DNA from: Corynebacterium tuberculostearicum
Lineage (GTDB): Bacteria > Actinomycetota > Actinomycetes > Mycobacteriales > Mycobacteriaceae
Assembly (NCBI RefSeq): GCF_016894265.1
Contig: NZ_CP069791.1
Coordinates: forward strand, 1,364,001-1,428,000
Direction: 5' to 3'
DNA: 64,000 nt
This document shows, in pieces, positions 10,206 through 56,695 of the stretch (within the stretch, counting starts at the first letter, position 1; every line of letters starts with the position of its first letter). The notes under the pieces are model-generated. The model was not told the DNA's origin. It saw only the letters and a program-made list of their open reading frames with translations, and ran no database searches. The position numbers were made by a program, and so were the translations under genes.

Positions 10206-10218
10206 GCTTGCCGACGCC
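10206..10218 (+). repeat. Dispersed 13-mer GCTTGCCGACGCC, copy 1 (intergenic)
   Basis: Exact copy six bases after the ffh terminator T-run. See the finding on this word; other exact copies are at 18861 (-), 19721 (+), 33190 (-), 40295 (+), 49738 (+) and 51556 (-), with a 12/13 copy at 55625 (-). Confidence 0.6.
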
Positions 10219-10289
10219 GCCCTAAGCCCCAGCGCGCCTTTGCATGAGGCGCCTTCGTTTTCGGGGCTTGAGCACGACCGAGCTATGGC

Positions 10290-12557
10290 CTAGACGGCAT
10301 CGTCTTGTGCGGCGTTGGGGTAGGGGACGGGGTTGGCATGTTGCTTGCCGGCGTCGGTAGGCGCTGCGGGCGCTTGCTCCACGGCTCCTGCAGCCTGCTC
10401 CGGTGGAATGTCCGGGGCTTCCTGCTGGACTTTTTCCCCGTTGAGGAAGGGCTTTAGGGCCTCGCGGATCATCGGCATTGCTGATTCCGCAAAAGCATTG
10501 GTGATGTGGTGCATGTCGCGGTAGACCATCGTATTGCCGATGATGACTGGGCAGTCACCATTGGCATCGCAGAACCACGGAGCGGTATCAATCGAGAGCA
10601 TATTTTGGTACTTCGACAACACGACTGCACCGGGATCATAAGGCTGGTAGACCTGCTCAAAGCGCATGCCGCAGCCGTAGGCATCTTCGGTAGCGACGTA
10701 GCACTCATCAAACTCGCGTGGACGGCCTTCTTCATCGAATCCCCACGGGTTATCGCGGAAGCCCAAGAAAGGAATATCGCGGTCGGCCAATTCCTCCCAG
10801 AATGCCTGGTAGCCGGCGGGCACGGCATCAGGGCCGGTGCCATATTCATTTTGCGGGCGAGTGGTATTCGAGATGACCAAGGCCGGGTTTGCCTCTTCGA
10901 TGCGTTCCATGACTAGCTCGCCCCACTCGGCACACTCTGGGGTCACGGTGACATCGTCACCCAATTCAATCGGGCAGCCCTGGCGCAGCAGCGGTACCAG
11001 CTTAAAGCCCATTTCCTTGCCTAAACGGTCCAGCGGGGCAGAATACTGCTCCGCGTGGGAACCGCCCACCAAATAGACTTCCTTCTCCGCATTGAGGTCA
11101 CCGAAAATGCAGGGGGTCTTACCGTCCTTGCGGGTTTCAAAGAAGAAGTCAGCAGGCTGGCTATCTGGCACGAAGCACCAATTTGTAGCGACGGGTGGCT
11201 GGATGCCGCCGGCCAGAATTGGATCGGGCTTGACCTCCACATTATCCGGCGGGGTGATGTCGTTGATGAACGTCGTTGCGCCGGGGTAGAGGGCAGGGTC
11301 CAAAAGCTCCGCATCAGCATCATCAAGGGTGCGCATCCACAGTGGCTGGACAGCCAAGAGGCCGACAACGGCCGCGGCGACTACAACGCCACCTACACCG
11401 CGGGCGGCACCGGCGGGTTTCTGCAAGGTCGACAGGCCCTTGCGTACCGGCAGATCCTCGGCCGTGGGGCGCTTGCGATGCTGTCGCAGGGGCTTTTCCA
11501 AAAAGCGGTGCGTGAGGTCCGCCAACACTAGAGAAATGACGATAATGATGACGCCCAACCACCACGACGGGGTTTCTTGACCCAGGTAGGACGTGGACAA
11601 AATAAGCAATGGCCAGTGCCACAGGTAGAGCGGGTAGGCTACATCGCCCAGCCAGCGCGCCTGCTTGGAGGCCATGGCCTTGGAAATCTTGCCACCGCCG
11701 CCCAAGATAATGAGCACGGCGCCGCCTAGTGGCAAAAGGGAAAGCGGGCCAGGATACGCAGTGGTATCCGCGATGATGGCACCGGTAAAGACGAGCATCA
11801 AAAGGCCCAGACCAGTAAAGAGGTCATAGAGGCGGGCCGGAATCTTCCAGGAGGAACCGTAGATAGCCAGGACCGCGCCCAAGGTTAACTCCCAAGCGCG
11901 CGACCAGGTGGAGTAGTAGTTCTCCGGAGTTCCGTAGAGGCCGTGGCGCGAAGCATAGGCGAAGGAAGCAATCGTGACCACGATGAGGATCGGGCCAGCA
12001 ATCTGGTTGACCGTGGGGAAGCTGCGCTTGCCCAAAGGCTGCTGCTTCGGTCGGAACTTCATGATGGCAGCCAAGATGAGCGCAAAGGCAATGCCCATGA
12101 TGTAGAACTGGCCCTGCACGGCCATGGACCACATGTGCTGCAGCGGTGAGGTATCAGCTGCGGCCGCCGTGTAGTCGGCGTTTTGCTCCGCTAGCTCCCA
12201 GTTCTGGTAATACAGCATGGTGGCTGTGATCTGCTGGGTGAGCTCGGTGCGCATGAGCTGCGGGGTGAAAATGCGCACTAGAATGTAGGTCACGCCGATG
12301 ACCAAAACCAAGCTTGGTACCAGGCGCCGCAAGGTGCGCCAGATGGGCCACCAAGGGTTCAGCGAGGCGTTGGGCTTGCTCGCGTAGCGCAGCTGGGAGC
12401 CCAAGAAGAAGTAGCCGGATAGCAGCAAGAATACGTCGACGCCGCCGGATACGCGTCCGACGAATACGTGGTAGATAACTACTAGGCCGATGGCAATACC
12501 GCGCAGACCATCAAGGTCATAGCGGTACCGGAAATTTCGCGGTGATTCTTTAGTCAT
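10290..12557 (-). CDS. Membrane acyltransferase (AT3/OafA family) with C-terminal SGNH domain
   Basis: A 755-aa integral membrane O-acyltransferase of the type that moves acyl groups to envelope sugars or lipids. The N-terminal part begins YRYDLDGLRGIAIG, the AT3 hallmark, and has about ten hydrophobic helices up to residue about 400. A periplasmic C-terminal domain carries an SGNH-like block (VGGSHAEQ, near residue 495) and a DMHHITNAFA block with the D-H pair. The usual GDSH is GGSH here. I prefer the ATG at 12557 over the upstream one at 12614 because it starts directly before the conserved domain. The substrate cannot be told from sequence; mycolate or arabinogalactan decoration is possible. 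Confidence 0.85.
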   Translation of the reverse strand: MTKESPRNFRYRYDLDGLRGIAIGLVVIYHVFVGRVSGGVDVFLLLSGYFFLGSQLRYASKPNASLNPWWPIWRTLRRLVPSLVLVIGVTYILVRIFTPQLMRTELTQQITATMLYYQNWELAEQNADYTAAAADTSPLQHMWSMAVQGQFYIMGIAFALILAAIMKFRPKQQPLGKRSFPTVNQIAGPILIVVTIASFAYASRHGLYGTPENYYSTWSRAWELTLGAVLAIYGSSWKIPARLYDLFTGLGLLMLVFTGAIIADTTAYPGPLSLLPLGGAVLIILGGGGKISKAMASKQARWLGDVAYPLYLWHWPLLILSTSYLGQETPSWWLGVIIIVISLVLADLTHRFLEKPLRQHRKRPTAEDLPVRKGLSTLQKPAGAARGVGGVVVAAAVVGLLAVQPLWMRTLDDADAELLDPALYPGATTFINDITPPDNVEVKPDPILAGGIQPPVATNWCFVPDSQPADFFFETRKDGKTPCIFGDLNAEKEVYLVGGSHAEQYSAPLDRLGKEMGFKLVPLLRQGCPIELGDDVTVTPECAEWGELVMERIEEANPALVISNTTRPQNEYGTGPDAVPAGYQAFWEELADRDIPFLGFRDNPWGFDEEGRPREFDECYVATEDAYGCGMRFEQVYQPYDPGAVVLSKYQNMLSIDTAPWFCDANGDCPVIIGNTMVYRDMHHITNAFAESAMPMIREALKPFLNGEKVQQEAPDIPPEQAAGAVEQAPAAPTDAGKQHANPVPYPNAAQDDAV

Positions 12558-13426: not shown

Positions 13427-13465
13427 TCTGCCTCCCTTGCTAAGCGCAAAGCGCTTCTAGCTTCG

Positions 13466-14927: not shown

Positions 14928-14952
14928 AGTTGTAGGGGGAGGGGCCGGCACA

Positions 14953-18814: not shown

Positions 18815-18849
18815 AACCTCCTTTCCCTTACTGGGAAAGGAGGTTTTGT
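18815..18849 (+). terminator. Terminator after the Ser-rich protein gene
   Basis: AACCTCCTTTCCC and GGGAAAGGAGGTT form a perfect 13-bp stem with a five-base loop, followed by TTGTG. Confidence 0.85.
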
Positions 18850-18860
18850 GCGTCTAGGGG

Positions 18861-18873
18861 GGCGTCGGCAAGC
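18861..18873 (-). repeat. Dispersed 13-mer GCTTGCCGACGCC, copy 2 (intergenic)
   Basis: Exact copy on the minus strand, 16 bases after the preceding terminator stem. Confidence 0.6.
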
Positions 18874-18947: not shown

Positions 18948-21284
18948 GTGAATATTGCGGCCACTATCGCCGCCGAGCTCAACGTCAAGGAATCGCAGGT
19001 TTCTACCGCGTTGCAGCTGCTTGCGGAGGGCAATACAGTGCCCTTTATCGCCCGCTACCGCAAGGAGGCCACCGGCGGGCTGGATGACTCCCAGCTGCGC
19101 ACCATTGAAGAGCGCGCGAACTATCTAAAGGAACTACAGGAGCGCAAGGAGACCATCCTTGCGGCGATTGAAGAGCAGGGCAAGCTTGGCGACGCCCTCA
19201 AGGAGCAAATCCTTGCCTGCGAGACCAAAGCGCGCCTAGAAGATTTGTATCTGCCGTATAAGAAACGCCGCAAAACCAAGGCCGATATAGCCCGCGAAGC
19301 CGGCCTTGAGGAGCTGACCGATAAGCTCATTGCGGATCCCAACGCCGCTCCAGAAGAGTTGGCACAGGCCTTTACCACCGAGGGCTTTGAGGACACCAAG
19401 AAGGCCCTCGACGGCGCCCGGGCCATCTTGGTGGACCGCTTCGCGCTCGACGCGGACCTGGTGGGTGAAGTACGCGAGCGCATGTTCACTGAAGGCTCCA
19501 TGGGCGCGCACGTTGTTGAGGGCAAGGAGGCCGAAGGCGCGAAGTTTAAGGATTACTTCGACTTCAACGAGCCCTTCCACAAGCTGCCTTCGCACCGCAT
19601 TTTGGCGCTGCTGCGTGGCGAGAATGAGGGCGTGCTGCAGCTGCAGCTAGATGCCGGCGATGACGCCGACTACGAGGATGTAATCGCCTCCCGCTTCGAG
19701 CTGGATCGCTCCTCCAAGTGGCTTGCCGACGCCGTCCATTGGGGCTGGCGCACCAAGCTCTATATTTCCTCTAGCCTGGACGTTCGCATGCGGCTAAAAG
19801 AGATCGCGGAGGAAGGCGCGCTGAAGATCTTTGCCACCAATCTGCGCGACGTGCTGCTCGCGGCACCTGCTGGCCAGCGTGCCACCATCGGCTTGGATCC
19901 GGGTTACCGCAATGGTGTGAAGTGCGCGGTAGTGGACAAAACCGGCAAGGTGCTCGATACCGCCATTGTCTACCCGCATCAGCCGCAGAACCAGTGGAGC
20001 CAAGCAGTTCAAACGCTGTCGACCCTGTGCGCCAAGCATTCTGTAGACCTTTTGGCCATCGGCAACGGCACCGCCTCCCGCGAGACCGAGAAGCTCGCCC
20101 AGGAAATTGCGGACCTTATCAAGCAAGCCGGCGGTCAACGACCCACTCCTGTGGTGGTTTCGGAGTCCGGCGCCTCGGTCTATTCCGCCTCGCCGCTTGC
20201 GGCGGAGGAATTTCCCGACATGGATGTCTCACTGCGCGGCGCGGTTTCCATCGCTCGCCGCTTGCAGGATCCTTTGGCTGAGTTGGTCAAGATCGATCCG
20301 AAGGCTATTGGTGTGGGGCAGTACCAGCACGACGTTAACCAGACGGCGCTCGCCCGCACCCTCGATGGCGTGGTGGAAAGTGCGGTAAACGGCGTGGGCG
20401 TAGATCTCAATACCGCTTCCGTCCCGCTGCTCGAGCGCGTAGCTGGCGTCAATTCCACCATCGCCACCAATATCGTTTCCTACCGCAACGAAAATGGGGC
20501 CTTTGCCTCCCGCAAGGAACTGAAGAAGGTACCGCGGCTTGGACCTAAGGCCTTTGAGCAGTCTGCCGGATTCCTCCGCATCAACGGCGGTACTGATCCG
20601 CTAGATGCCTCCGCCGTACACCCAGAGGCCTATCCTGTCGTCTCCCGCATCGCGGCGAAGACGGGCCTGGGTATTTCTGAACTTATTGGCAATACCCGCG
20701 TACTTAGCACGCTGGCGCCCGCAGACTTTGCGGATGAGACCTTCGGCATTCCTACGGTGACCGATATCATCGCCGAGCTGGATAAACCCGGACGCGACCC
20801 GCGCCCTGAGTTCAAGACCGCCACCTTTAAAGAAGGCGTACATAAGGTCTCCGATCTCACCCCGGGCATGATTCTTGAGGGCACGGTGACCAACGTGGCG
20901 GCATTTGGCGCCTTCGTGGATGTCGGAGTCCATCAGGATGGCCTCGTCCACGTTTCTGCCATGAGCCACAAGTTTGTTTCCGATCCGCACGAGGTCGTGC
21001 GCTCTGGCCAGGTGGTCAAGGTGAAGGTCATGGAGGTTGATGTGGAGCGCCAGCGCATCGGTCTCTCCCTCCGTTTGGATGATGACCCGGGGCAGCCGGC
21101 CCCTAAACGCCGCGGTGATTCCCCACGCGGTTCCGCCAAATCCGGAGCCAGGGGCGAAGGAAAGCGCTCTGGCCACAAATCTGGGCGCGGATCCCGGGAC
21201 GGCTCGCGCGGCCGCACTGGCGGTCGAGGTGGCTCCGGTGGTGGTGGAGCCATGGCCGATGCCTTGAAGAAGGCAGGCTTCTAA
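18948..21284 (+). CDS. tex: RNA-binding transcription accessory protein Tex
   Basis: A conserved nucleic-acid-binding protein that acts in transcription/RNA turnover. Domains in order: Tex N-terminal region (about 1-320), a YqgF/RNase H-like domain at about 305-440 ([17 protein letters not shown]), helix-hairpin-helix repeats at about 480-560 ([14 protein letters not shown]), and an S1 RNA-binding domain at about 640-710 ([20 protein letters not shown]). A Gly/Arg/Ser-rich tail (RGG-like, about 720-770) ends in [10 protein letters not shown]. The start is GTG preceded by GAGGAG. 778 aa is the typical length plus this tail. Confidence 0.93.
19721..19733 (+). repeat. Dispersed 13-mer GCTTGCCGACGCC, copy 3 (inside tex)
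   Basis: Exact copy; read in frame as Leu-Ala-Asp-Ala. Confidence 0.55.
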
Positions 21285-27472: not shown

Positions 27473-28100
27473 ACAGCGACGCACCTACGAGGTCGCATTG
27501 AGCAAGGCCGGTTTAGGCCCGGTGGCCGGCGTAGATGAGGCTGGGCGCGGTGCCTGCTGCGGACCGATTACCCTCGCAGCCTGCGTCATGCCCGATCGGC
27601 CGATCAAGGAGTTGGCGCAGCTTACAGATTCAAAGAAGCTAACTCCCAAACAGCGCGAGAGGCTCTTTCCACTCATTAAGGACAAGGCTGTGGACTGGTC
27701 TGTAGTGCATATTGGTGCGGGGGACATCGATAAGCGCGGCATCCAGCACGCCAATATTTCCGGCATGCGCAGGGCGGTTGGGCGCCTGGAAGCGCGTCCG
27801 GGCTATGTGCTTACCGACGCCCTCTTTATCCCCGGCCTTGCCCAACCCCACCTGCCCATTATCGGCGGCGATGCGGCCGCACGGTGCATTGCCGCGGCGA
27901 GTGTATTGGCCAAAGTCAGCCGCGATCACCTGATGCACGAGCTGGATGCGCGGTACCCCGGCTACGGGTTGGCCAGCCATAAGGGGTATGGGACCAAGGC
28001 ACACGAGGCCGCAATTGCGGCGCTTGGAGCGTGCCCGGAGCACCGGATCAGCTATGAGAATGTCCGCCGCGCACATGCGGAGTTTGCCGCGCGTGCCTAG
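27459..28100 (+). CDS. rnhB: Ribonuclease HII
   Basis: RNase HII cleaves RNA in RNA/DNA hybrids and removes single ribonucleotides from DNA. Catalytic acids are in GVDEAGRG (residues about 22-29), with later TDSKKLTP and an Asp in LTDALFIPG. The open frame extends upstream to 27399, but the ATG at 27459 gives the usual start just before the conserved block and 213 aa. It overlaps the second signal peptidase gene. Confidence 0.93.
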
Positions 28101-29037: not shown

Positions 29038-30586
29038 TTGTTTGACCATGTCCCTCAACGGAGTCTTAGCCCAGTTGGTTGACGTGGAAGCGAACGTCGG
29101 TCACGGACTGCCGGGAATTCACGTTGTAGGCCAGACGGATACCGCAATCTCCGAATCCCGGGACCGAATCAAGACCGCAGCCTTTAATTCCCATCTGCCC
29201 TGGCCCAAGACCAAAGTGGTTGTTTCCATGTCCCCGGCTTCGCTTCCCAAATCCGGGTCCCACTTTGACCTACCCATAGCGCTGGCAATCCTCGCGGCAC
29301 AGGCGGAGGCCGACTTTCCGTCTTATGGCAGCACTCCCTCGCCCGCCCAACGCCTCCAGCGCACCTTGGTCCTAGGTGAGCTCGGACTCGACGGCTCCGT
29401 TCGGCCTGTAGCAGGTATTATCCCCGCTCTTCTGGCCGCACGGGAACAGGGAATAACAACTCTCCTTGTTCCGCCTGGCAATGCCGCCGAGGCGACTTTG
29501 GTGCCGGACATGGACGTACTGGTTGCTTCGTCGTTGAACGAGGCTTTCGGCTGGGCCTGCGGTAATCGTGGGCTGCCGCAAGCTGGAAGTTTTTCGGGTT
29601 CCCTCAACCCCACGCCAGCGGCGGCATCGCGCCTCGACTTTAGCGATATTGCTGGTCAATCCAATGCGAAATGGGCTGCCGAGGTTGCGGCCGCCGGCGG
29701 CCACCACCTGATGATGATTGGGCCGCCTGGGTCAGGAAAATCCATGATCGCCTCGCGTCTGCCCACCATTCTGCCTACCCTTACCCCGGACCAGCAGGTC
29801 GAAACCACTGCAATTCATTCGCTGACCGGGACCCCAGGTGAGGTTATCGAGCGCGCCCCGTTCATCGCCCCGCATGCCTCGGTTACTCGGGCGGCATTAC
29901 TTGGTGGCGGTTCCGGACATCCGCGCCCTGGTGCGGTGAGCTTGGCTCACAATGGTGTGCTCTTTCTCGACGAGGCCAGTGAGGTAGCCGCGCCGGTACT
30001 CGATGGTTTGCGTGCCCCGCTGGAGGAAGGACACGTGCGGTTGGCGCGCTCGCGCCGCGAGGTAACTTATCCTGCTCGCTTCCAATTGGTCATGGCGGCA
30101 AACCCGTGTAGGTGTGCGGCCGAAGACCCGTCCAAGTGCAGGTGCAATCCGCACGAGCGCATGAACTATCTATCCAACCTCTCCGGTCCGCTACGAGACC
30201 GTCTGGATATGGTGGTCACGCTAACGGGTCAGGCGGCAACGATTAACGCGGAGGGAGAAGAGGAATCCGCAGTTATCGCCGAGCGCGTCGCCGCGGCCCG
30301 TGAACGCGCCGCCGCGCGCTGGTGGGCGGATGGCATCACTGCGCGAACCAATGGCGAAGTCCCTTCGTCCTATTTGCGCCGAAAGAGACCGGCCGCCGAA
30401 GCCGCGATGGTCATGCTGTCCGCTTATTTGGCAGATGGCGAAATATCCCAGCGCGGAGTGGACCGCGTATTGAAGCTCTCCTGGACCCTGGCGGATCTAG
30501 CAGGAAAGGCGCAGCCGGATCTGGACGAAGTGGGGCGCGCGCTCGATCTACGCGGCTCAATTAATGTAGGGAGGCTCGCAGCATGA
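29024..30586 (+). CDS. comM: YifB/ComM-like AAA+ ATPase (Mg-chelatase-like)
   Basis: A 520-aa protein of the ComM/YifB family, known in some bacteria to aid branch migration of imported DNA during transformation. The N-terminal domain (about 1-190) is followed by an AAA+ core with Walker A GPPGSGKS (about 235-242) and Walker B LFLDEASE (about 315). A cysteine cluster (CRCAAEDPSKCRC) follows. The C-terminal domain ends near the dprA start. ATG 29024 fits the AAGGGGG site at 29011; the earlier in-frame ATG at 28967 lies inside YraN. Confidence 0.9.
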   Translation: MALGNCLTMSLNGVLAQLVDVEANVGHGLPGIHVVGQTDTAISESRDRIKTAAFNSHLPWPKTKVVVSMSPASLPKSGSHFDLPIALAILAAQAEADFPSYGSTPSPAQRLQRTLVLGELGLDGSVRPVAGIIPALLAAREQGITTLLVPPGNAAEATLVPDMDVLVASSLNEAFGWACGNRGLPQAGSFSGSLNPTPAAASRLDFSDIAGQSNAKWAAEVAAAGGHHLMMIGPPGSGKSMIASRLPTILPTLTPDQQVETTAIHSLTGTPGEVIERAPFIAPHASVTRAALLGGGSGHPRPGAVSLAHNGVLFLDEASEVAAPVLDGLRAPLEEGHVRLARSRREVTYPARFQLVMAANPCRCAAEDPSKCRCNPHERMNYLSNLSGPLRDRLDMVVTLTGQAATINAEGEEESAVIAERVAAARERAAARWWADGITARTNGEVPSSYLRRKRPAAEAAMVMLSAYLADGEISQRGVDRVLKLSWTLADLAGKAQPDLDEVGRALDLRGSINVGRLAA

Positions 30587-32717: not shown

Positions 32718-33235
32718 AGCGGTTTGAGGCGAATTACCGGCATATCCAGCAGAGTTAAAGGATCGATGTAGGTATCTTTTGCAATGAGCGCGCCCCAGTG
32801 CAGTCCGGGGTAGCCATCGACGGGATTGCCTAAACGGCCTATCACTTGGCCCTCGCGGACTTCTTGGTCCTGCTTTACGGAGCCGTGCACTGGCTGATAC
32901 GTCGTTCTCACTCCATCCGCGTGGTCAATGGAGACAACTGGTTTGCCAGCAACCGTGCCCACAAAGGCGACTTCGCCGTCTTCGGCGGCTACCACCGGTG
33001 AGCCCACCGATAGGGCCATGTCGACGCCGCGGTGGCCAGGGCTCCACTTCTGTTCTGGGGCATCGAATCCACGCAGCACCCGCGCCGGGCTAGGTTTGCC
33101 GGAAGCAGGGTCGACATAGGCCGTGGCCGGTGGGCAACACAAAATAAGAAGCGAAAGAAGGGTGAGGAAAGCGGCGGGGAGGAAGGCGGGGCGTCGGCAA
33201 GCGGGAAATGTGGAGGGGGAAAGAAACTGATTCAT
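32714..33235 (-). CDS. Secreted M23-like (LytM-type) protein, partly degenerate
   Basis: A 173-aa protein with an N-terminal signal peptide (hydrophobic residues about 16-36, cut likely after ATAY or near). It has a LytM domain: HRGVDMALSVGSP (His, Asp zinc ligands), GVRTTYQPVHG and GLHWGALI (third zinc ligand His). In ordinary M23 endopeptidases the YxH and HxH motifs supply two further histidines; here they read TYQP and GLH, so both auxiliary histidines are missing. It may bind cell wall or regulate a hydrolase instead of cutting. The ATG at 33235 is preferred to the upstream one. Related single-domain proteins occur near rpsB in actinobacteria. Confidence 0.8.
   Translation of the reverse strand: MNQFLSPSTFPACRRPAFLPAAFLTLLSLLILCCPPATAYVDPASGKPSPARVLRGFDAPEQKWSPGHRGVDMALSVGSPVVAAEDGEVAFVGTVAGKPVVSIDHADGVRTTYQPVHGSVKQDQEVREGQVIGRLGNPVDGYPGLHWGALIAKDTYIDPLTLLDMPVIRLKPL
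33190..33202 (-). repeat. Dispersed 13-mer GCTTGCCGACGCC, copy 4 (inside M23-like gene)
   Basis: Exact copy in the signal-peptide coding part; read there as Ala-Cys-Arg-Arg, unlike the Leu-Ala-Asp-Ala reading elsewhere. Confidence 0.55.
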
Positions 33236-39870: not shown

Positions 39871-39876
39871 TAAGAT
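39871..39876 (+). promoter_or_regulatory. -10 box of the ABC transporter operon (leaderless)
   Basis: TAAGAT lies eight bases before ATG 39885, with no ribosome site. Confidence 0.55.
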
Positions 39877-39884
39877 TGGCGGAT

Positions 39885-40715
39885 ATGATTATTCCGAATT
39901 ATCCGCCGCTTGCAGATGACCCCACCGCGCAGGCCTTTGCCGTGCGCGGTCTGAATAAATCTTTCGCTGGACGCCCCGCGGTGTCGAATTTGAGCCTCGA
40001 CATCCCGCGGGGCTCTATTTGTGGCATCGTTGGCCCCAATGGCGCCGGCAAAACCACCATGTTGACCATGGCATGTGGCCTGCTGCGCCCAGATAGTGGT
40101 GAGGCGTTTATCGCTGGGCACAATACGTGGCAGGAACCGATTGCGGCCAAGGCAGCCATGGGCCTACTCATTGATGGCGCTCCAGTCTTTGACCGTTTAT
40201 CGGGCCCAGAGTATTTGTTCTATCTCGGAGCATTGCGCCGCATGAATCAAGCCGAAGTGGAGCATCGTAGCGCACAGCTTTTGGATGCCTTGCAGCTTGC
40301 CGACGCCGCCGATAAACCCATCGCGGACTATTCCGCCGGCATGACTAAGAAGATCCTTTTGGCAGGTGCGCTTTTGCATAACCCAGAGGTCGTAATACTA
40401 GATGAGCCTCTGGAAGCGGTGGACCCAGTCTCGGGCCAGCTCATTCAGGAGCTCTTGCGCGCCTATGTCGCCCGCGGTGGCACCGTAATCCTGTCTTCAC
40501 ACGTTATGCAATTGGTAGAAGGATTGTGTGATCATGTAGCCATTATTGCGGGAGGACAGGTGTTATCTGCTGGCCACGTCGAGGAGGTTCGCCAAGGCGG
40601 CAGCCTGACGGATGCCTTCATCCACTTTGCCGGTGGGAGTGACTTTGATGCGGGCTCTTTCGACTGGCTGCGTCGTGAAGGCGGCGAGCCGCAGCGCGGG
40701 GAAGGGGAGGCGTAG
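39885..40715 (+). CDS. ABC transporter ATP-binding protein
   Basis: A 276-aa ATPase. Walker A GPNGAGKTT (about residue 49-57), signature DYSAGMTKK (about 146-154) and Walker B VVILDEPLEAVD (about 168-179) are present, then a switch His in SSHVMQL. It probably drives the large membrane subunit encoded five bases downstream. TTG at 39876 is in frame upstream, but a -10 box overlaps it, so ATG 39885 is preferred. Substrate unknown; the permease resembles ABC-2 exporters. Confidence 0.88.
   Translation: MIIPNYPPLADDPTAQAFAVRGLNKSFAGRPAVSNLSLDIPRGSICGIVGPNGAGKTTMLTMACGLLRPDSGEAFIAGHNTWQEPIAAKAAMGLLIDGAPVFDRLSGPEYLFYLGALRRMNQAEVEHRSAQLLDALQLADAADKPIADYSAGMTKKILLAGALLHNPEVVILDEPLEAVDPVSGQLIQELLRAYVARGGTVILSSHVMQLVEGLCDHVAIIAGGQVLSAGHVEEVRQGGSLTDAFIHFAGGSDFDAGSFDWLRREGGEPQRGEGEA
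40295..40307 (+). repeat. Dispersed 13-mer GCTTGCCGACGCC, copy 5 (inside ABC ATPase)
   Basis: Exact copy, read in frame as Leu-Ala-Asp-Ala. Confidence 0.55.
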
Positions 40716-42313: not shown

Positions 42314-42502
42314 TCCTCCGGCCCCCGCGACAGTGGCCGCATTGCGGCCCTCTCGGGGTCGCGGTTGAGGCCGTGGGGGCTGGGAGTGGGGCCTAAACGA
42401 CAGGATGTGTTGGTGAGGAGGAGGGGCGTCGCCAAGCGGAGGCATAAAGAAACCGCCGACCTTCGCGGGGAAGGGCGGCGGTAGCTAAAGCGTACTAAAA
42501 GC
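42314..42502. other. Intergenic region with nested hairpins
   Basis: A nested structure CCGCGAC/GTCGCGG (42325-42364) around GGCCGC/GCGGCC (42335-42349), a one-mismatch copy of the 13-mer (GGCGTCGCCAAGC at 42425-42437), then a terminator for the minus-strand gene at 42445-42481. Confidence 0.5.
42445..42481 (-). terminator. Terminator of the DUF2631 gene
   Basis: On the minus strand CCGCCGCCCTT pairs with AAGGTCGGCGG and is followed by TTTCTTTAT. Confidence 0.7.
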
Positions 42503-43141: not shown

Positions 43142-44302
43142 GTGACTACTCAGCGAATACTCATTCTTGGTTCCACCGGTTCAATCGGCACGCAGGCTCT
43201 GGAAGTCATTGCGGATAATCCCGATAAATTCGACGTCGTGGGAATCGCTGCGGGTGGCTCCAACCCGCAGCTCATCATCGAACAAGCCTGTAGCCTCAAC
43301 CTTTCGTTTGACCACGTTGCCGTGGCCAACGAGGGCGCCGCGGCCGAGGTGTCGGCCGCTTTAGGCGGTTCGGTTTTGAGTGGCGCCGACGCTGCAGAGC
43401 ACCTAGTGCGCTCGGCCCCGGCCGATACAGTACTCAATGCCTTGGTGGGGTCTTTGGGGCTCAAGGCCACCTTGGCCACATTGGAGATGGGCGAGTATCT
43501 GGCCTTGGCCAATAAGGAATCCCTCGTCGCGGGCGGCACGCTGGTTACCCAAAAGGCGCGCCCTGGTCAGATCATCCCTGTTGACTCGGAACATTCCGCC
43601 ATGGCGCAGTGCCTGCGTGCCGGCGAGGAGGGGGAGCTGGATAAGCTCGTCCTTACCGCCTCTGGTGGTCCGTTTCGTGGTTGGTCGCGCGAAGAGATGT
43701 GGGACGTGACCCCTGAGCAGGCAGCGCAGCACCCTACCTGGTCGATGGGGCAGATGAATACCCTCAACTCCGCCACCCTCATTAACAAGGGCCTGGAGCT
43801 GATTGAAGCCACCCTGCTCTTTGACATCGCCCCGGAGCGCATCGACGTCACCGTGCACCCGCAGTCCATCATTCACTCCATGGCCACCTTCAAGGACGGC
43901 TGCACTATTGCTCAGGTCTCGCCGCCGTCGATGAAGCTGCCCATTTCGCTAGCGCTGAATTGGCCGCACCGCGTCCCAGATGCCCAGCCGGCCTTGGACT
44001 TTGCGCAGGCGCATGATTGGCGCTTTGAGCCGCTTGACGATGCCGCCTTTCCCGCAGTCAACCTCGCCTGCCGGGCCGCGGCCGAGGGAACAGGGGTCAT
44101 CTACAACGCCGCCAATGAGGAGGCAGCGGCCGCGTTCTTGTCCGGGCGCATCCATTTCCCGGAGATCGTGGACGTCGTGGGCACGATCCTTGATTCCGCA
44201 TCCGAGTTTGCTGGTGTAGTCTCTAGCCTCGATGAAATCCTCGCGGTAGAAGGCGAGGCGCGCAGGCGCGCGAATGCGCTGATTGACTCGCTGGCTGACT
44301 AG
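43142..44302 (+). CDS. dxr: 1-deoxy-D-xylulose 5-phosphate reductoisomerase
   Basis: Second enzyme of the MEP isoprenoid pathway (DXP to MEP with NADPH), target of fosmidomycin. The NADPH site is [12 protein letters not shown] (residues about 7-18). Metal-binding and substrate residues are in [13 protein letters not shown] and TASGGPFRG, with [16 protein letters not shown] after them. 386 aa. GTG start. It is followed by rseP and ispG, an order known from actinobacteria. Confidence 0.96.
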
Positions 44303-44316: not shown

Positions 44317-45525
44317 ATGGCAAACTTGCTGGGCATTGTGTTTTTCGCCCTTGGCATCGGGCTCACCGTAGCGCTGCACGAAGCAGGCCATATGCTCACC
44401 GCGCGCGCCTTTGGCATGCGCGTGCGCCGCTATTTTATTGGCTTTGGCCCGCGCTTATTCTCCTTCCGGAAGGGCCACACGGAATATGGGCTTGCGGCCT
44501 TCCCGGTAGGCGGGTTTTGCGATATTGCTGGCATGACCGCCCAGGATGAATTCCTCACCGAGGAAGAAGAGCCCCATGCGATGTATAAAAAGCCGTGGTG
44601 GCAGTGCATTATCGTGATGGCCGGCGGCATCGGTGTCAATCTGATTTTGGGCTTTGTCATCCTCTACTTTGTGGCGATGACGGCTGGTCTGCCCAACCCG
44701 GATGCTGACGTGCGCCCCCGTGTGGGCGAGGTGACCTGCTCGGCCAATCAGAAGCCGAACCAAGAACTGGAAAAGTGCACGGGTCAAGGCCCAGCCGGAA
44801 AAGCCGGCGTGCAGGAGGGCGATATCATCGTGGCCCTCGATGGCCAGAAGCTGGATTCTTTTACCCAGCTGCGCGATGAGGTAATGCAGCGCCCCGGTGA
44901 GACCATCACGCTGACGGTGGAGCGCGGTGGGGAAGAAAGGGACTTCCCGGTTCACCTTGATACGGTCAAGCGGTTGAACCAAGACGGCGAGCTAGTCGAT
45001 GCTGGCTCTATCGGGCTGAGCAATCAGCTTATCGATGTCGTCGAAAAGCACGGCGCCGTCGACGCCCTGCCGGCAACCTGGCGCTTTAGCACCTACTCAC
45101 TGAGCGCAACGATCGACGGGCTGAAGCAATTCCCGGGCAAAATTCCGGGTGTGGTGGCCTCCATCTTTGGCCACGAACGCGAGGCCGATGGCCCGATGTC
45201 CGTCGTCGGCGCTTCTCGCGTGGGCGGCGAATTGGCGGAGCGCTCCCTGTGGTCGATGTTCTTTATGATGCTGGCCACCCTGAATTTCTTCCTCGCGCTC
45301 TTTAACCTGATTCCGCTGCCGCCTTTCGACGGCGGACATATCGCCGTCATCATTTATGAAAAGCTGCGCGATGGCATCCGCACACTGGCGGGCAAGCCAG
45401 CTCTGGGGCCGGCCGATTACACCAAGTTGATGCCGGTGACCTATGTCATGGCCGCGCTGCTGATGGGTGTTGGGGCCATCGTGATCGTCGCCGATGTGGT
45501 CAACCCCATTCGGCTATTTGGCTAG
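44317..45525 (+). CDS. rseP: Site-2 intramembrane metalloprotease (RseP/Rip1 type)
   Basis: Cuts membrane-bound anti-sigma factors and signal-peptide remnants inside the bilayer. Zinc motif HEAGH (about residue 21-25) in the first helix and PPFDGGH near the C-terminus (about 330) are clear. A PDZ domain covers about 135-215 (AGVQEGDIIVALDGQ). Four membrane segments. 402 aa. The start is ATG, 14 bases after the dxr stop. Its mycobacterial relative Rip1 controls lipid and stress regulons. Confidence 0.94.
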   Translation: MANLLGIVFFALGIGLTVALHEAGHMLTARAFGMRVRRYFIGFGPRLFSFRKGHTEYGLAAFPVGGFCDIAGMTAQDEFLTEEEEPHAMYKKPWWQCIIVMAGGIGVNLILGFVILYFVAMTAGLPNPDADVRPRVGEVTCSANQKPNQELEKCTGQGPAGKAGVQEGDIIVALDGQKLDSFTQLRDEVMQRPGETITLTVERGGEERDFPVHLDTVKRLNQDGELVDAGSIGLSNQLIDVVEKHGAVDALPATWRFSTYSLSATIDGLKQFPGKIPGVVASIFGHEREADGPMSVVGASRVGGELAERSLWSMFFMMLATLNFFLALFNLIPLPPFDGGHIAVIIYEKLRDGIRTLAGKPALGPADYTKLMPVTYVMAALLMGVGAIVIVADVVNPIRLFG

Positions 45526-46878: not shown

Positions 46879-48741
46879 ATGAAGGACATGAAGAAGTTGG
46901 TCGCGCTGGTTGCAACTATCACGCTCGCCTCCACCAGCGTGGTTGCCTGTACACTGAAGCCGGTTTCTGCGGAACCGGTCGCGGAAGAATTCCTCCAGGG
47001 GATGGAATCCCGCAATAATGACGGCTTAGCCGCGCTTACCGACGCCCCCTCCGACGCCACCTCCGCCCTCGATGCCACCTACTCCGGCCTGCAGGCCGAG
47101 GGGCTCGACATGGAGCTTGAAGGCGTGGACCAAGATGAGAACCTCGCCACGGCGAACTACAAGGTCACCTGGGATCTGCCCAAGGATCGTACCTTGAGCT
47201 ATGACACGCAGATGACGCTGACCAAGACTGAGGATGAATGGACGGTGCGGTGGAAGCCAAGCCTCATCCACCCCGACCTGGGAGCAAATCAGCACCTGGA
47301 ACTGCGCGCACTGGAAGCAGAGCGCGCCAGCGTGGTGTCTTCCAACGGAGTGGAATTGATGAGCCCGGGGCTGAACTACCGGCTGGTGGTAGATACTAGC
47401 TCGCTGGATGATGTGCGGCCCACCGCTTCTAAGATCAGCGGCGCACTGGCTGCCGCCCACCGCCAGGATGACTCCATTGCAGAGATGGATGCCAAGGATC
47501 TGGCGAAAAAATTGGAGGATGCAGACGGCTCCTTTTCCGTCACCATGTTTACGGAGGATCAAGCCAAGGCTGTGCGCCCCAGGGTGGAAGGCATAGACGG
47601 CGCGCGCCTCAATGAAGAACCGGCTCTGGTCACCCGCGACCGTGGGCTGGCACCCGATCTGATGTCGCGTGTGCGCTCCGCGGTCCAGGATGAGGTCGAT
47701 GGCCAAACCGGCTGGTCCATTTCTGTGGTCAATGAAAATGGTGCGGCGCTCTCTGATGTGGAAAAGCACGACCCTGATGCGGCACCGTCGATCAAGGTAG
47801 GTCTGGACTACGATGTGCAGCGTGCCGCGCAGGAGGCGGTCAACGAGCGTGCCGATTCCCAGGCCATGCTCGTAGCCATCCGCCCCTCCAATGGTGATAT
47901 CTTGGCCGTCGCCCAAACCGAGAAGGCCGATGAAGACGGCGATGTAGCCTTACAAGGTCAGTACCCGCCCGGCTCGGTATTCAAGATTCTCACCGCAGCG
48001 GCCGGCGTAGAAAAGCAGGGGCTTAATACCGATACCATCGTTCCGTGCCCGGGCACCATGGATATCTTTGGCCGCGTGGTGACCAACTACAATGCCTTCG
48101 CCCTAGGCAGCGTTCCGCTCAGCCAAGCCTTTGCACAATCGTGCAACACTACCTTCGCGGATATTTCCACCAAGCTCAAGCCTGGTGAGTTGAAAGACAT
48201 GGGAAAGAAGTTTGGCTACGGAGTGGAATACGATATTCCAGGCCTTACTACCATTACCGGTTCCATTCCGGAGGGCAAAGAACCACTGGAGCGCACTGAA
48301 GCTGGCTATGGTCAAGGCTACGACTTGGCTAGCCCTTTCGGCATGGCGCTGGTCTCTGCCACGGTAGCCAACGGCAAAACGCCAACACCTCAGCTGATTG
48401 AAGGCCATGAGACCAAAGCCTCCGATAAGCCGCAGCAGATTTCTAAGCCCGTGTTGGACAATGTCCGCAGCATGATGCGCCAAGTGGTCACCAGCGGTAC
48501 TGCCCGCAGCATGGCTGCTGGCGGCACCATCTACGGCAAGACCGGTGAGGCCGAGATTAACGAGGGCTCGCACGCCTGGTTTACCGGCTACCGCGAAGAA
48601 GACGATATCGCCTTTGCCACCCTCGTGGTTTTGGGCGGCGGCTCCGATGTATCGGTAAATATCACGAGCAACTTCTTGCAGAAGGTCGATGATTACCGTT
48701 CAGGCCCACACGAAGGGGCAGCGCCCCCAGCCGAAGGCTAG
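46879..48741 (+). CDS. Penicillin-binding transpeptidase, lipoprotein with MecA-like N-terminal domain
   Basis: A 620-aa class B-like PBP that crosslinks peptidoglycan. A signal peptide ends in a lipobox (TSVVAC, Cys near residue 24), so it is membrane-tethered by lipid. A MecA_N/NTF2-like domain (about 30-145) and a dimerisation-like region (about 150-310) follow. The transpeptidase domain has SVFK (in PPGSVFKIL, about 371), SCN (about 430) and KTG (about 554). Start codon ATG 46879 has a -10 box eight bases away; ATG 46888 is an alternative. The combination resembles actinobacterial low-affinity PBPs. Confidence 0.9.
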   Translation: MKDMKKLVALVATITLASTSVVACTLKPVSAEPVAEEFLQGMESRNNDGLAALTDAPSDATSALDATYSGLQAEGLDMELEGVDQDENLATANYKVTWDLPKDRTLSYDTQMTLTKTEDEWTVRWKPSLIHPDLGANQHLELRALEAERASVVSSNGVELMSPGLNYRLVVDTSSLDDVRPTASKISGALAAAHRQDDSIAEMDAKDLAKKLEDADGSFSVTMFTEDQAKAVRPRVEGIDGARLNEEPALVTRDRGLAPDLMSRVRSAVQDEVDGQTGWSISVVNENGAALSDVEKHDPDAAPSIKVGLDYDVQRAAQEAVNERADSQAMLVAIRPSNGDILAVAQTEKADEDGDVALQGQYPPGSVFKILTAAAGVEKQGLNTDTIVPCPGTMDIFGRVVTNYNAFALGSVPLSQAFAQSCNTTFADISTKLKPGELKDMGKKFGYGVEYDIPGLTTITGSIPEGKEPLERTEAGYGQGYDLASPFGMALVSATVANGKTPTPQLIEGHETKASDKPQQISKPVLDNVRSMMRQVVTSGTARSMAAGGTIYGKTGEAEINEGSHAWFTGYREEDDIAFATLVVLGGGSDVSVNITSNFLQKVDDYRSGPHEGAAPPAEG

Positions 48742-49737: not shown

Positions 49738-49750
49738 GCTTGCCGACGCC
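49738..49750 (+). repeat. Dispersed 13-mer GCTTGCCGACGCC, copy 6 (intergenic)
   Basis: Exact copy directly after the map terminator. Confidence 0.6.
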
Positions 49751-51039: not shown

Positions 51040-52437
51040 TTACCACTCCAGTCCCAAAAGGGCATTTTCCACTACTTCTGGCAGCGCAGGGTGGATCCAA
51101 TATTGGTTGCGAGTGAACTCCCGCATGTCCAATTTGTAGGCCATCGCGGTAATCAATTGCTGGATGAGGGTGGAGGCCTGCGGGCCCATGAGGTGCGCGC
51201 CGAGAAGCTGCCCTGTCGCGCGATCGGCAACTAGCTTGCAGATACCGGTGCTATCTTCCATAGCCCAGCCGTAGGCAACGTCGCCAAAGTTCTGGACCTT
51301 GACGGTGACGTCGAAGCCCTTCTGTCGTGCTTGCTTCTCAGTTAGGCCCACTGTGGCGATTTGTGGGTGGGTAAAGATGGCGGCGGGGACATTGTCGTGG
51401 GGCAGTGGGCGGAGATCTTCTGGGTGGAGCAGGTTGTGCTGCACGGCGCGGGTCTCCGCATTGGCTACGTGCTTGAGCATGTACGGCGAGGAGACATCGC
51501 CAAGTGCCCAAACACCCTCGGCGGCGGTGCGGCCGAACTCATCGGTGCTCACGCGGGCGTCGGCAAGCAGCTCAATGCCTGCCTTGTCCAGATCCATTTG
51601 ATCGCCGTTTGGGGTGCGCCCGGTAGCAACTAGAATCGCTTCTGCTTCCACGGACTCACCATTGTCGAGCTCCAACCGCACGCCCGTGTCAGTTTCCTCG
51701 AGCTTGGTGCCATTGGCTATGTGCACGTCGAAGCGATCGCGAGCAATTTGGTTGAAGCGCCTGGAAATGTCATCATCGAGGTGGCGCAGCAAGGTCTCGG
51801 ACCGGTTGACCACGGTCACCTTGGTGCCGAGGCCGTCGAAGACGTGGGCAAACTCCATCGCGATATAGCCGCCGCCCACCACGATTAAGCTCTCCGGCTG
51901 GTGGTCCATGCGCATAATGTCTTCATTGGTGTAGTACTTGATGCCGGAATCTGCATAGACCTCCGGAATGACCGGCCGGGAACCGGCGGCAATGACGATC
52001 TGATCGCCACTGATGACATGGTTGCCAGTTTGTATGGTCTTGGGGCCAACAAAGCGAGCGTGTTCGTCGTAGACGGTGATATTAGGGGTTTCCTCACCGC
52101 GGCGGTACTGCTCGCCGCCTTGGGCAATCTGGTCGATGCGGTTGTTAAAGACGCGGTCCACAATGGAGTTCCAGTCCACGCTGTTGACCTGAGCATCTAG
52201 GCCTAGCCGGCCGGCTTCGCGTGCAGCCAAGGCGATGTCGGCGGCATAGACATACATCTTGGTGGGAATGCAGCCTACGTTGAGGCAGGTGCCGCCGAAG
52301 GTGCCCTTTTCAATGATGGCGATTTTCTGGTCATCAAAATCCGGGCTAGGGATGGAGTTTCCGGAGCCGGTGCCGATGATGATGAGGTCGAAATGTTCCT
52401 CGGCAGCGGGCGTGTGGGACTGGTGTGAAGTAGTCAC
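51040..52437 (-). CDS. mtr: Mycothione reductase
   Basis: FAD-dependent disulfide reductase that keeps mycothiol reduced with NADPH. The FAD site is IIIGTGSGNS, and the redox-active cysteine pair is in GGTCLNVGCIPTK (about residues 48-60). NADPH site VVGGGYIAMEFAHVF follows. The C-terminal catalytic His-Glu is in HPALPEVVE (about 452-460). 465 aa. It is downstream of the hydrolase gene on the same strand, 27 bases apart. Confidence 0.93.
   Translation of the reverse strand: MTTSHQSHTPAAEEHFDLIIIGTGSGNSIPSPDFDDQKIAIIEKGTFGGTCLNVGCIPTKMYVYAADIALAAREAGRLGLDAQVNSVDWNSIVDRVFNNRIDQIAQGGEQYRRGEETPNITVYDEHARFVGPKTIQTGNHVISGDQIVIAAGSRPVIPEVYADSGIKYYTNEDIMRMDHQPESLIVVGGGYIAMEFAHVFDGLGTKVTVVNRSETLLRHLDDDISRRFNQIARDRFDVHIANGTKLEETDTGVRLELDNGESVEAEAILVATGRTPNGDQMDLDKAGIELLADARVSTDEFGRTAAEGVWALGDVSSPYMLKHVANAETRAVQHNLLHPEDLRPLPHDNVPAAIFTHPQIATVGLTEKQARQKGFDVTVKVQNFGDVAYGWAMEDSTGICKLVADRATGQLLGAHLMGPQASTLIQQLITAMAYKLDMREFTRNQYWIHPALPEVVENALLGLEW
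51556..51568 (-). repeat. Dispersed 13-mer GCTTGCCGACGCC, copy 7 (inside mtr)
   Basis: Exact copy, read as Leu-Ala-Asp-Ala in mtr. Confidence 0.55.
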
Positions 52438-52464
52438 GTTTATTCCTTATATATAGGGACTAAA

Positions 52465-55254: not shown

Positions 55255-55275
55255 GAGCTAGCTTTCGGCCTCGTT

Positions 55276-55310
55276 AGCCCCTGCACCGCCGCTGTTGTGG
55301 TGCAGGGGCT
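55276..55310 (+). terminator. mqo terminator
   Basis: AGCCCCTGCACC and GGTGCAGGGGCT form a perfect 12-bp stem. The T-run after it is weak (TCGTG). It lies about 20 bases after the stop. Confidence 0.6.
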
Positions 55311-55339
55311 TCGTGCGCTTTGAGCAAGGCGGGGAGGGA

Positions 55340-56695
55340 TTAAGTACCGCAGTAGGTGAGGTAGCCCTCGAGACCATTAGGATCCGGCGATTCGAACGGT
55401 GGGTTGGGCTCCCACGGGTGGGTGACCGCGTGCAGGAGCTCCTGATACGGGCCCATCTCCCCGCGTTCGGCAGCATCCAGTGCGGATTCTACGGCGAGGT
55501 TGCGCGGGATAACCCGCGGCATGGCGTTATCGACGCGGGAAGGATCGGGCGAGGAGGCAAGGTAGTCATCCAAGAAGTCTCCCTCGGCAAAGAGCTCGCG
55601 GGCGTGGGTGGGGTGACCTGCGGCGGCGTCGGCAAGAGCGCGGTGAGCCAGCGTGATATCTGGACCGTTGAGCTGCATGGCTGCTGCATAGGAAGAAGCG
55701 ACCTCCAGGGAGGTGTCCAAAGCCTTCGCCACATCTGCCCTGCGCTGGTGCTCAAAGCGGTCGCTAAAGCCGTTGATGGATTCTTGTGCAAGGCTCATGG
55801 CCTTATTCATGTCCATATCAAAAAGCGGCAGGAGGGATTCCGCTAAGCGGGCCAGGTTCCACCCCAGAATGGAGGGCTGATTGCCAAAGGTATAACGGCC
55901 CTGCCTATCGATGCTGGAGAAGACCGTCGCGGGCGAATAGGCCTCCATAAAGGCACAGGGGCCATAGTCAATGGTCTCGCCAGAGATGGTGGTGTTATCC
56001 GTATTCATCACGCCGTGAATAAAGCCCAAGCGCATCCACTGGGACACGGTGCGGATCTGCGCATCCATCACCTGGGTGAAAAATTCCTGGTAGTCCGCGC
56101 CAGGGTAGTGGCGCGCAATGGCATAGTCGGCCAATTGGCGGGTGTAATCCGTCTGCGCGGCTAGGTGAAAGGTGCCGACGCGGATGTGGCTAGCGGCCAC
56201 GCGTACCACAATGCCGGCCGGTTGCACGTGCCCGCGCTGAATGGGCCGTCCGGTGGAAATAACCGCCAGCGCCCGGGTGGTGGGAACGCCCAAGGCATGC
56301 ATAGCCTCAGAGACTAGGTACTCGCGCAGCATGGAAGACAGCGTTCCGCGGCCATCGGACCCGAGGCGGGAAAAGGGAGTAAGTCCAGTTCCCTTGGCAT
56401 GGAGATCCCATAGCCGCCCGTCCTTATCCACCTCGCCCAAGAGCATGGCCCGGCCGTCTCCCATCTGCGGGTTAAACGCACCGAATTGGAAGCCGGAATA
56501 GGCCATGGCGTGGCCGCCCGCGCGGCCGGTAAGGAAATCTATGCCCTCGGAGGAGCGCAGCCAGTCCGGGTCAAAGCCCAACTGCCTGGCTAGTTCCTCG
56601 TTCAGGATGACCATCTGTGGGTTCGGTTGCTCCTCACCCTCGGTGGGGCGAACCAAGTGGGGAAGCTTCTGGGCAAAATCGTGGTGTAGCTGCAT
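55340..56695 (-). CDS. selO: SelO-type protein AMPylase (YdiU/UPF0061)
   Basis: A pseudokinase that transfers AMP from ATP to proteins; bacterial SelO has been linked to redox stress. The nucleotide-binding core shows GRAMLLGEV, WDLHAKGTGLTPFSRLGSDG and STGRPIQRG. The C-terminus ends YCGT, so a single Cys sits three residues from the end, like the redox Cys of other SelO proteins. 451 aa, slightly short. Abuts the phzF-like gene without any gap (stop next to ATG). Confidence 0.88.
   Translation of the reverse strand: MQLHHDFAQKLPHLVRPTEGEEQPNPQMVILNEELARQLGFDPDWLRSSEGIDFLTGRAGGHAMAYSGFQFGAFNPQMGDGRAMLLGEVDKDGRLWDLHAKGTGLTPFSRLGSDGRGTLSSMLREYLVSEAMHALGVPTTRALAVISTGRPIQRGHVQPAGIVVRVAASHIRVGTFHLAAQTDYTRQLADYAIARHYPGADYQEFFTQVMDAQIRTVSQWMRLGFIHGVMNTDNTTISGETIDYGPCAFMEAYSPATVFSSIDRQGRYTFGNQPSILGWNLARLAESLLPLFDMDMNKAMSLAQESINGFSDRFEHQRRADVAKALDTSLEVASSYAAAMQLNGPDITLAHRALADAAAGHPTHARELFAEGDFLDDYLASSPDPSRVDNAMPRVIPRNLAVESALDAAERGEMGPYQELLHAVTHPWEPNPPFESPDPNGLEGYLTYCGT
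55625..55636 (-). repeat. Dispersed word, copy 8 (12 of 13, inside selO)
   Basis: CTTGCCGACGCC on the minus strand; the base before it is a C where the other copies have G. Read as Leu-Ala-Asp-Ala. Confidence 0.5.

Follow-up and report, generated by a model that had tools for sequence, protein, structure and literature searches.

Sequence features of the window

The stretch analysed here, referred to as the window, comprises 64,000 nucleotides of the Corynebacterium tuberculostearicum chromosome (GCF_016894265.1, contig NZ_CP069791.1), namely positions 1,364,001–1,428,000 of a genome of 2,433,864 bases (the home genome, G000). Among its genes are ffh, tex, map, a selO-like gene and two competence-associated genes, a comM-type gene and dprA, whose presence had been proposed in an earlier note on this DNA and is confirmed by their domains (29048..30586 and 30583..31764; Table 1). 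The window also carries many copies of a 13-base word, GCTTGCCGACGCC. This word belongs to a genome-wide, one-way recognition element of the genus Corynebacterium, in which a core of 13 bp (GCTT-NN-CGA[C or T]G-[C/T]C) is followed by a C-rich tail of approximately 36 bases. From its sequence pattern, the element most likely works as a DNA uptake sequence.

All seven exact copies that the earlier note had listed were recovered on the same positions and strands, as were a 12/13 copy at 55625 (TCTTGCCGACGCC) and a one-mismatch copy at 42425; the list of near-copies had missed four others, at 6236 (-), 19184 (+), 27809 (+) and 47034 (+). With up to one mismatch allowed the window contains 13 copies of GCTTGCCGACGCC (shuffle mean 0.39, maximum 3 in 100 shuffles), and it contains 19 matches to a looser core, GCTTNNCGAYGNC. 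The home genome possesses 189 exact copies (99 forward, 90 reverse), the control, the reversed word, being found 0 times. Using an 864-kb sample (40 evenly spaced 20-kb stretches of the home genome plus the window), GCTTGCCGACGCC was the top-ranking 13-mer, with 69 copies where an order-5 Markov model predicts 0.34. The genome-wide count that had been called for thus lies far over expectation. The word is a real repeat unit, yet GCTTGCCGACGCC is merely the commonest form of the looser core GCTTNNCGACG[C/T]C. Like the uptake words of other bacteria, it is massively over-represented on both strands, beyond what base and codon composition give.

Structure of the element

Counts of single- and double-base variants in the 864-kb sample defined the core of the home genome as GCTT-NN-CGACG-[C/T]C. 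Positions 5 and 6 are free, GCTTATCGACGCC, GCTTGTCGACGCC and GCTTTCCGACGCC being present in 20, 16 and 14 copies (each expected <0.4), and T is tolerated at position 12 (11 copies). C7, G8, A9, C10 and G11 are near-invariant, with 0 or 1 copy per variant. The base preceding the core is most often C (41/69 exact copies), and the analysis of variants and flanks found no conservation around the core beyond base composition. The core is not self-complementary and so lacks the palindromic character of HIP1-type words.

The full unit extends for about 36 bases on the same strand, C-rich and G-poor, to approximately position 49, where the composition returns abruptly to background. Among 161 copies reading Leu-x-Asp-Ala/Val, the third codon position was C in 61–80% of cases at codons +6 to +15 (background 42%) and in 45% at +16. 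Position 19 of the element carries G or T instead of C, and a short upstream stretch is C-poor. The tail is also present in 19 intergenic and 44 antisense copies. Scored as C minus G over positions 14–49 from the core start, it reached +0.242 (standard error 0.018) in exact cores (n=75), +0.194 in NN variants (n=116) and +0.221 where position 12 is T (n=62). Broken cores scored +0.017 (0.018) with A9 changed (n=45), +0.030 with C7 changed (n=16), and +0.051 and +0.067 with T4 or T3 changed. C minus G was near zero from position 54 onward in the site classes. The tail thus largely distinguishes sites from look-alikes. Intermediate scores were obtained with G1 changed (+0.168), with A or G at position 12 (+0.123) and in other L-x-D-A-type matches without GCTT (+0.113), all of which may be decaying sites.

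Coding context

Gene status was taken from our own gene calls, in which the copy at 33190 counts as intergenic. Of the 69 exact copies of the sample, 60 are coding and nine intergenic; the coding ones divide into 43 that follow the Leu-Ala-Asp-Ala frame and 17 that are antisense to the gene. With 12% of the sequence being intergenic, there is no intergenic preference. Enrichment is therefore not confined to Leu-Ala-Asp-Ala contexts; such confinement, or a count near expectation, is what the earlier note had named as evidence against a signal.

The probability that codon preference, a common protein motif or a transposed repeat produced the word is practically nil. Most coding copies do read Leu-x-Asp-Ala (43/60 exact), but shuffling synonymous codons within genes gave only about 2 coding copies (maximum 5 in 60 shuffles) against the 60 observed, and about 9 (maximum 16) against 212 for the looser core class. 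A shuffle which also preserves the next base gave means of 1.3 and 7.2, respectively (maximum 3 and 18 in 40). Codon preference, which had already been judged insufficient on its own, is refuted as the cause. Antisense and intergenic copies share both core and tail, and the flanks have none of the conservation of a transposed repeat beyond composition. Leu-Ala-Asp-Ala is itself inflated by the word: it is the second commonest tetrapeptide of the 864-kb sample and 49 of its 67 occurrences are spelled by the word, which shows that the word has shaped proteins.

Within the window, the Leu-Ala-Asp-Ala reading holds for 19721, 40295, 51556 and the 12/13 copy at 55625; the fourth exact copy taken to be coding, 33190, falls outside the called genes. 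It was said to read in another frame, and it lies upstream of the called start of the M23 peptidase gene, in an open frame, possibly the N-terminus of the protein, where it reads Ala-Cys-Arg-Arg.

Orientation, spacing and terminators

GC skew placed the origin of the home genome at about 520 kb and the terminus at about 1,720 kb. Exact copies lie on the leading strand in 95 of 189 cases, so there is no replication polarity; a replication-polar word is ruled out, in agreement with the view that both orientations argue against a polar segregation motif. The copies are uniform round the chromosome (Kolmogorov-Smirnov p 0.23), with no clustering at origin or terminus. Their spacing is random (coefficient of variation 0.97 vs 0.99; mean 12.9 kb), and neighbours share the same orientation in 91 of 188 cases.

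These data bear on two alternatives. The element could be a Chi-type recombination or repair signal, read single-stranded by a helicase-nuclease, with the C-rich tail marking the loaded strand. Its directionality, the strand asymmetry of the tail and its frequency genome-wide would suit such a signal. Known Chi sites are, however, biased to the leading strand, a bias which is absent here, and core and tail together are far longer than a Chi site; this reading is unlikely. The element could also serve the organisation, segregation or replication of the chromosome (like KOPS, parS or MatS, or as a site where a nucleoid protein attaches), as its occurrence all round the chromosome at the above mean spacing would allow. 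This is very unlikely, since the copies show no polarity toward the terminus, no clustering and random spacing.

A tie to terminators was not borne out. The three intergenic copies were held to lie within 6–16 bases of a terminator stem. In a simple stem scan a terminator-like stem was close by at 10206 alone (10234–10252), while none was found at 18861. Around 49738 the scan gave two stems, each read on the other strand: a weak one of 5 pairs, some 30 bases upstream, and one of 12 pairs, some 66 bases downstream. Close pairs are few: the closest exact copies of the home genome are at least 253 bp apart, and GCTTNNCGACGNC forms only three opposite-strand and two same-strand pairs less than 100 bp apart in 904 kb. 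Together with the 9/69 intergenic copies, these results do not support a terminator-linked word, and this reading was rejected.

The copies of the window are collected in Table 1. At 45027–45049 two sites on opposite strands overlap, one of the GATG and one of the GACG form.

Table 1. Copies of the element and competence-associated genes in the window (tail composition given as C and G in 36 bases)
Feature	Position	Strand	Remarks
Variant GCTTTTCGACGTC	5026..5038	-	Antisense within gene 4555-5088 (+)
Match GCTTAACGATGGC, GATG form	5993..6005	-	Tail weak; possibly chance
One-mismatch copy	6236	-	From one-mismatch scan of the window
Variant GCTTCTCGACGCC	6898..6910	+	In gene 6323-8446 (+)
Variant GCTTGGCGACGTC	9044..9056	-	Antisense in ffh
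Exact core	10206..10218	+	Intergenic, after ffh; tail would be 10219-10254, C15/G10
Exact core	18861..18873	-	Intergenic; tail would be 18825-18860, C14/G6
Variant GCTTGGCGACGCC	19184..19196	+	In tex; one mismatch
Exact core	19721..19733	+	In tex (18948-21284, +), Leu-Ala-Asp-Ala frame; tail C11/G9
GATG-form copy GCTTATCGATGTC	27723..27735	-	Strong C tail, C16/G5; candidate relic of other dialect
Variant GCTTACCGACGCC	27809..27821	+	One mismatch; tail C20/G4
comM-type gene	29048..30586	+	Mg_chelatase and ChlI domains; competence-associated
dprA	30583..31764	+	DNA_processg_A domain; competence-associated
Exact core	33190..33202	-	Upstream of, or in N-terminal extension of, M23 peptidase gene; strong C tail 33154-33189, C20/G3
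Exact core	40295..40307	+	In ABC ATPase gene (39876-40715, +), Leu-Ala-Asp-Ala frame; tail C13/G9
Variant GCTTGGCGACGCC	42425..42437	-	Intergenic; one mismatch; tail C17/G4
GATG-form copy GCTTGACGATGCC	44032..44044	+	Tail C17/G10; candidate relic
GATG-form copy GCTTATCGATGTC	45027..45039	+	Overlaps opposite-strand site 45037..45049
Variant GCTTTTCGACGAC	45037..45049	-	Overlaps opposite-strand GATG-form site 45027..45039
Variant GCTTACCGACGCC	47034..47046	+	One mismatch; tail C21/G5
Exact core	49738..49750	+	Intergenic, after map; tail without C excess, C12/G13
Exact core	51556..51568	-	In oxidoreductase gene (51040-52437, -), Leu-Ala-Asp-Ala frame; tail C15/G12
12/13 copy TCTTGCCGACGCC	55625..55637	-	In selO-like gene (55340-56695, -), Leu-Ala-Asp-Ala frame (derived by hand)

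Occurrence in the genus and order

The comparison with related corynebacteria that had been proposed was made by counting GCTTNNCGAYGNC in 242 Corynebacterium genomes, the home genome included, with the reversed word as control; a genome was considered enriched if it contained at least 150 copies and at least 5 times the control. Enrichment was found in 182 genomes (median 800 copies, range 188–1604), whereas 17 were weakly raised and 43 at background. In 149 other genomes of the order, representing 55 other genera, counts, read by eye, were about 0.2–3.4 times the control, and the word was not strongly enriched.

Named loci gave a similar picture. One from a Corynebacterium sp. (L125), with a Tad-topA gene order like that of the home genome, contained 13 copies in 21 kb (control 0), and a second, from C. 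urealyticum (7 kb), contained no copies. Among at least 80 loci listed, the 78 from other genera contained 26 copies against 20 of the control in 1.36 Mb.

Some genomes are heterogeneous or poor in sites. G027 has 456 sites genome-wide, yet three of five sampled stretches were site-free; its first 100 kb (L046–L050), a partly word-poor region, contain GTGCTGTTGCAAA 10 times. G028 shows a weak excess (95 vs 17 control). G043 is word-less and falls inside the group of CGATG genomes in the Tad phylogeny described below; apparently this is a recent loss, which makes the genome useful for tracing what was lost along with the word.

Dialects

Samples of 80–100 kb from 14 further genomes were searched unprompted for enriched words, one round keeping only words spread over at least three stretches. 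The enriched words were CGCTTATCGACG (G009), GCTTTCCGACGCC (G185), GCTTGTCGACGCC (G068), CGCTTGCCGATG (G001), GCTTGACGATGCC (G107), TTCTCGACGCCAC (G007) and CGACGCCACCAG (G230), with weaker ones in G143, G165 and G241; no enriched word was found in the samples of G011, G027, G028 and G029. The part common to all of these dialect words is CGA[C/T]G. YCGACGCCAC is raised in another set of genomes (e.g. G007, G018, G049, G143, G214 and G230), and in the three checked it is preceded by a T-rich stretch and followed by a C-rich tract.

The choice between CGACG and CGATG is switch-like: of 182 word-rich genomes 17 have 82–99% CGATG, 164 have at most 16% and one, G052, has 25%. There are therefore lineage dialects with a constant core, as known for uptake sequences. 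Three genomes with low counts are mostly CGATG (G028, 70/95; G128, 39/50; G194, 37/52) and are perhaps fading CGATG dialects. In a phylogeny built on four Tad proteins (39 genomes), the 14 CGATG genomes fall into one clade (100/100) along with word-less G043 and two CGACG users, G015 and the home genome.

The home genome holds 101 CGATG copies among 928. They resemble remnants of an earlier dialect, since 35 sampled ones possess the C-rich tail (+0.166) and the counterparts with A or G at this position number only 4 and 6. The Tad and comEC loci of the home genome were aligned with those of G001 (32.7 kb at about 79% identity; two loci of one species pair). Of the 18 CGACG sites covered, 11 differ in G001 by a C-to-T change only, another one is CGATG but carries a further difference, six have ceased to be sites and 0 kept CGACG. 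When all GACG contexts of the home genome that align to GANG in G001 were considered, sites included, the base was C in 101, T in 60, G in 15 and A in 3. At these two loci of one species pair the dialect has switched in place. The copies arise by point changes and not by insertions, 12 of the 18 orthologous sites being gap-free with one or two base differences.

The dialects bear on the alternatives. A Chi-type signal would need a change in the helicase that rewrote about 900 sites without drive. A chromosome-organising signal fits poorly with the 43 background genomes. Some of them do use another dialect (e.g. G007, G143, G230), but in G011 and G029 no word was found in 80–100 kb, something a housekeeping role would hardly permit; depletion in atypical genes (see below) also argues against it, as does a separate, parS-like word in G165, GTTTCACGTGAAA.

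Another genome-wide enzyme could own the site, either topoisomerase I or a methylase or defence system that spares marked DNA. A strong site of mycobacterial topoisomerase I is CGCTTG, which the left part of the element, (C)GCTTG, matches, with C preceding the core as often as stated above. Lineages with TTCTCGACGCCAC-like dialects, however, lack CGCTTG and have CGACGCC with a C-rich tract, bases 5 and 6 of the core are free, and a literature search for the site gave nothing. As for modification, such sites are not known to build up inside genes to this degree. Either version of an enzyme site is highly improbable.

Transformation genes

The home genome encodes comEA (helix-hairpin-helix), comEC, dprA, comM and a Tad pilus locus. 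The latter specifies CpaF, TadB- and TadC-like T2SSF proteins, a Flp-like DUF4244 protein and a Tad-domain protein, as well as a TadZ-like ATPase and a small TadE-like protein, both named by position and resemblance. The locus lies near topA, beside a gene for an MrfA-like helicase, and this order recurs in the relatives checked (L105, L107, L109, L111, L118, L120, L122, L074, L125). The home genome thus has a transformation apparatus such as the host of an uptake sequence would require, though word-less species have one too.

Several side observations were made on these genes. In each of G014, G091 and G229, comEC was matched twice, at separate places. In word-less G113 the small TadE-like protein beside Flp was not found, and the versions in G012 and G029 have diverged.

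Dialect-specific residues were sought in the putative receptors. In TadZ one Gln/Glu column has Glu in 14/14 CGATG genomes and Gln in 16/20 CGACG genomes (2 Glu); being one of 1,506 Tad columns, it is not pressed. The Tad alignment omitted the TadE-like row of G113, which had matched the other TadE-like protein. On the 14 genomes first compared, the dialects are separated by one ComEA column close to the membrane helix, besides the ComEA residue treated below, and by a single ComEC column rich in gaps.

Interpretation of the element

An uptake sequence is probably the correct reading, because abundance, cost to proteins, lack of polarity, dialects, block switching by one base and depletion in atypical genes all fit biased uptake followed by recombination. 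Some DNA-binding component of the apparatus for natural transformation (Tad pilus, ComEA, ComEC) would favour fragments bearing the element, and homologous replacement by the preferred fragments would accumulate and maintain copies genome-wide, inside genes at the expense of protein sequence. Should the preference of the receptor shift by one base, the copies would follow and dialects would result. The tail may reflect the strand drawn in, or the path of the DNA along the apparatus. An uptake-type word had been among the candidates of the earlier note and is the best supported of them, by the shuffles, the non-polarity, the dialects and the gene set, even though the tie to terminators found no support. 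The Chi, segregation, topoisomerase and modification readings account for fewer of the facts.

Sites are scarce in genes of atypical codon use, which may include foreign DNA. In the codon-atypical tenth of genes 57 kb hold 6 sites, a density of 1.05 per 10 kb; the other nine tenths have 3.0–5.1 per 10 kb, a comparison confounded by the lower GC content of the atypical genes. Two of 40 stretches of the home genome have a single site, L006 and L020, the latter with 51% GC, sugar genes and transposases. In scans of viral sequences, the matches listed had one copy per stretch for the word and the reversed control alike, and no Corynebacterium was present among the 15 and the 30 matches listed in searches of plasmids.

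A number of results weigh against an uptake sequence. comEC is present in 241 of 242 genomes and a Tad-type ATPase in 239 (235 above the Pfam cut-off), word-less genomes included; both being near-universal in the genus, their presence explains nothing about which species bear the word and is ruled out as a discriminator. Five word-less genomes checked retain Tad proteins and six retain ComEA. comEC appears to be broken in three word-rich genomes: G015 and G016 have an in-frame TGA, and in G131 the gene is split into two parts some 38 kb from each other on the same contig, a pattern suggestive of an inserted element. Across 34 genomes, seven Tad proteins contain no column by which the dialects could be told apart. 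The ComEA residue before the first Gly-Val-Gly, in the helix-hairpin-helix DNA-binding domain, a candidate dialect receptor residue which was perfect on 14 genomes, failed on 32: four CGATG genomes have Pro and three CGACG genomes have Ser or Thr. These 32 came from 41 genomes, seven word-less ones, one mixed one and G129, which the profile missed, being left out. No dialect-matched receptor of the ComP type was established among residues of Tad proteins (34 genomes), ComEA (14 and 32 genomes) or ComEC (14 genomes).

Composition also counts on this side. The lower GC of the atypical genes confounds their depletion, and the 0 sites in 85 kb of two phages may mean only that their hosts are themselves word-less. 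The tail separates sites from look-alikes imperfectly, as the score of L-x-D-A-type matches without GCTT indicates, and three of nine genomes checked, G185, G068 and G165, show only a weak one (+0.04 to +0.07); in G001, G107, G009, G007 and G230 it is +0.13 to +0.23. Finally, among the papers listed from the open-licence literature, none shows natural transformation in Corynebacterium by its title or abstract.

On balance we lean towards the fuller proposal that the element marks the DNA of its own kind for uptake, which would be a first among Gram-positive bacteria. Core and strand-specific tail would be read together, and genus-wide dialects that switch as a block, at some 900 sites in a genome, would isolate species sexually. 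If true, this suggests that DNA exchange by transformation is far above what is currently assumed. A cloned element could become a handle for the genetics of strains that are hard to transform.

Comparison with known systems

The open-licence literature was searched for the element, subscription journals being mostly outside this scope. The 13-mer or its complement occurred in none of the papers among the matches listed (a shorter form was matched in 22, of which 21 were listed), and no title or abstract among these matches reported an uptake sequence in Corynebacterium or another Gram-positive bacterium. The element resembles Chi in being a frequent, directional genomic word. It differs in that a leading-strand bias was tested for and none found, in being far longer than Chi, and in having dialects that switch.

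The part consulted of a spaced-motif scan of 569 genomes names Corynebacterium for CRISPR repeats only (PMC5217627). The DNA uptake sequences (DUS) of the Neisseriaceae, as described in the portion considered of Frye et al. (2013; PMC3630211), comprise eight dialects with a conserved CTG. Like DUS, the Corynebacterium word is short and non-palindromic, is present in hundreds to thousands of copies, including copies in genes, and has dialects with an invariant core which track phylogeny (PMC3630211, same portion). The two words are unrelated, and a core with a C-rich tail of about 36 bases stands against a DUS of 10–12 bp. Unlike DUS, the word is not paired into terminators, and some species of the genus show no word. 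Its hosts are Gram-positive and carry genes for a Tad pilus, whereas DUS go with type IV pili and ComP, and the system is known here from sequence alone.

For the uptake signal sequence (USS) of the Pasteurellaceae, the sections used of Mora et al. (2020; PMC7811141) give 1,465 core copies, 2,206 copies by motif search and evolution by point mutation. A strong core with longer flanks of biased composition is common to both, judging from the same sections. The flanks of USS are AT-rich, whereas the tail here is C-rich and G-poor; the sequences are unrelated, and the measured uptake bias belongs to USS. Strong preference for an uptake word is described there, in the part considered, for two Gram-negative families (PMC7811141).

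An uptake role, if proven, would be new for Gram-positive bacteria. A convergent Gram-positive system with Tad-type genes would open tests of why uptake words evolve, how fast they switch and whether they isolate species, for which the 242 genomes, the relative of opposite dialect, the relic copies and the word-less relatives provide material. Natural transformation by means of a Flp/Tad pilus was reportedly described for Micrococcus luteus by Angelov and colleagues in 2015 (PMC4322843). A review that covers this bacterium (PMC6370729), in the part consulted, states that it transforms using comEA, comEC and Flp/Tad genes, that comG genes are absent, and makes no mention of an uptake word. The home genome of the present element possesses this same set of genes, comEA, comEC and Tad/Flp (PMC6370729, same part).

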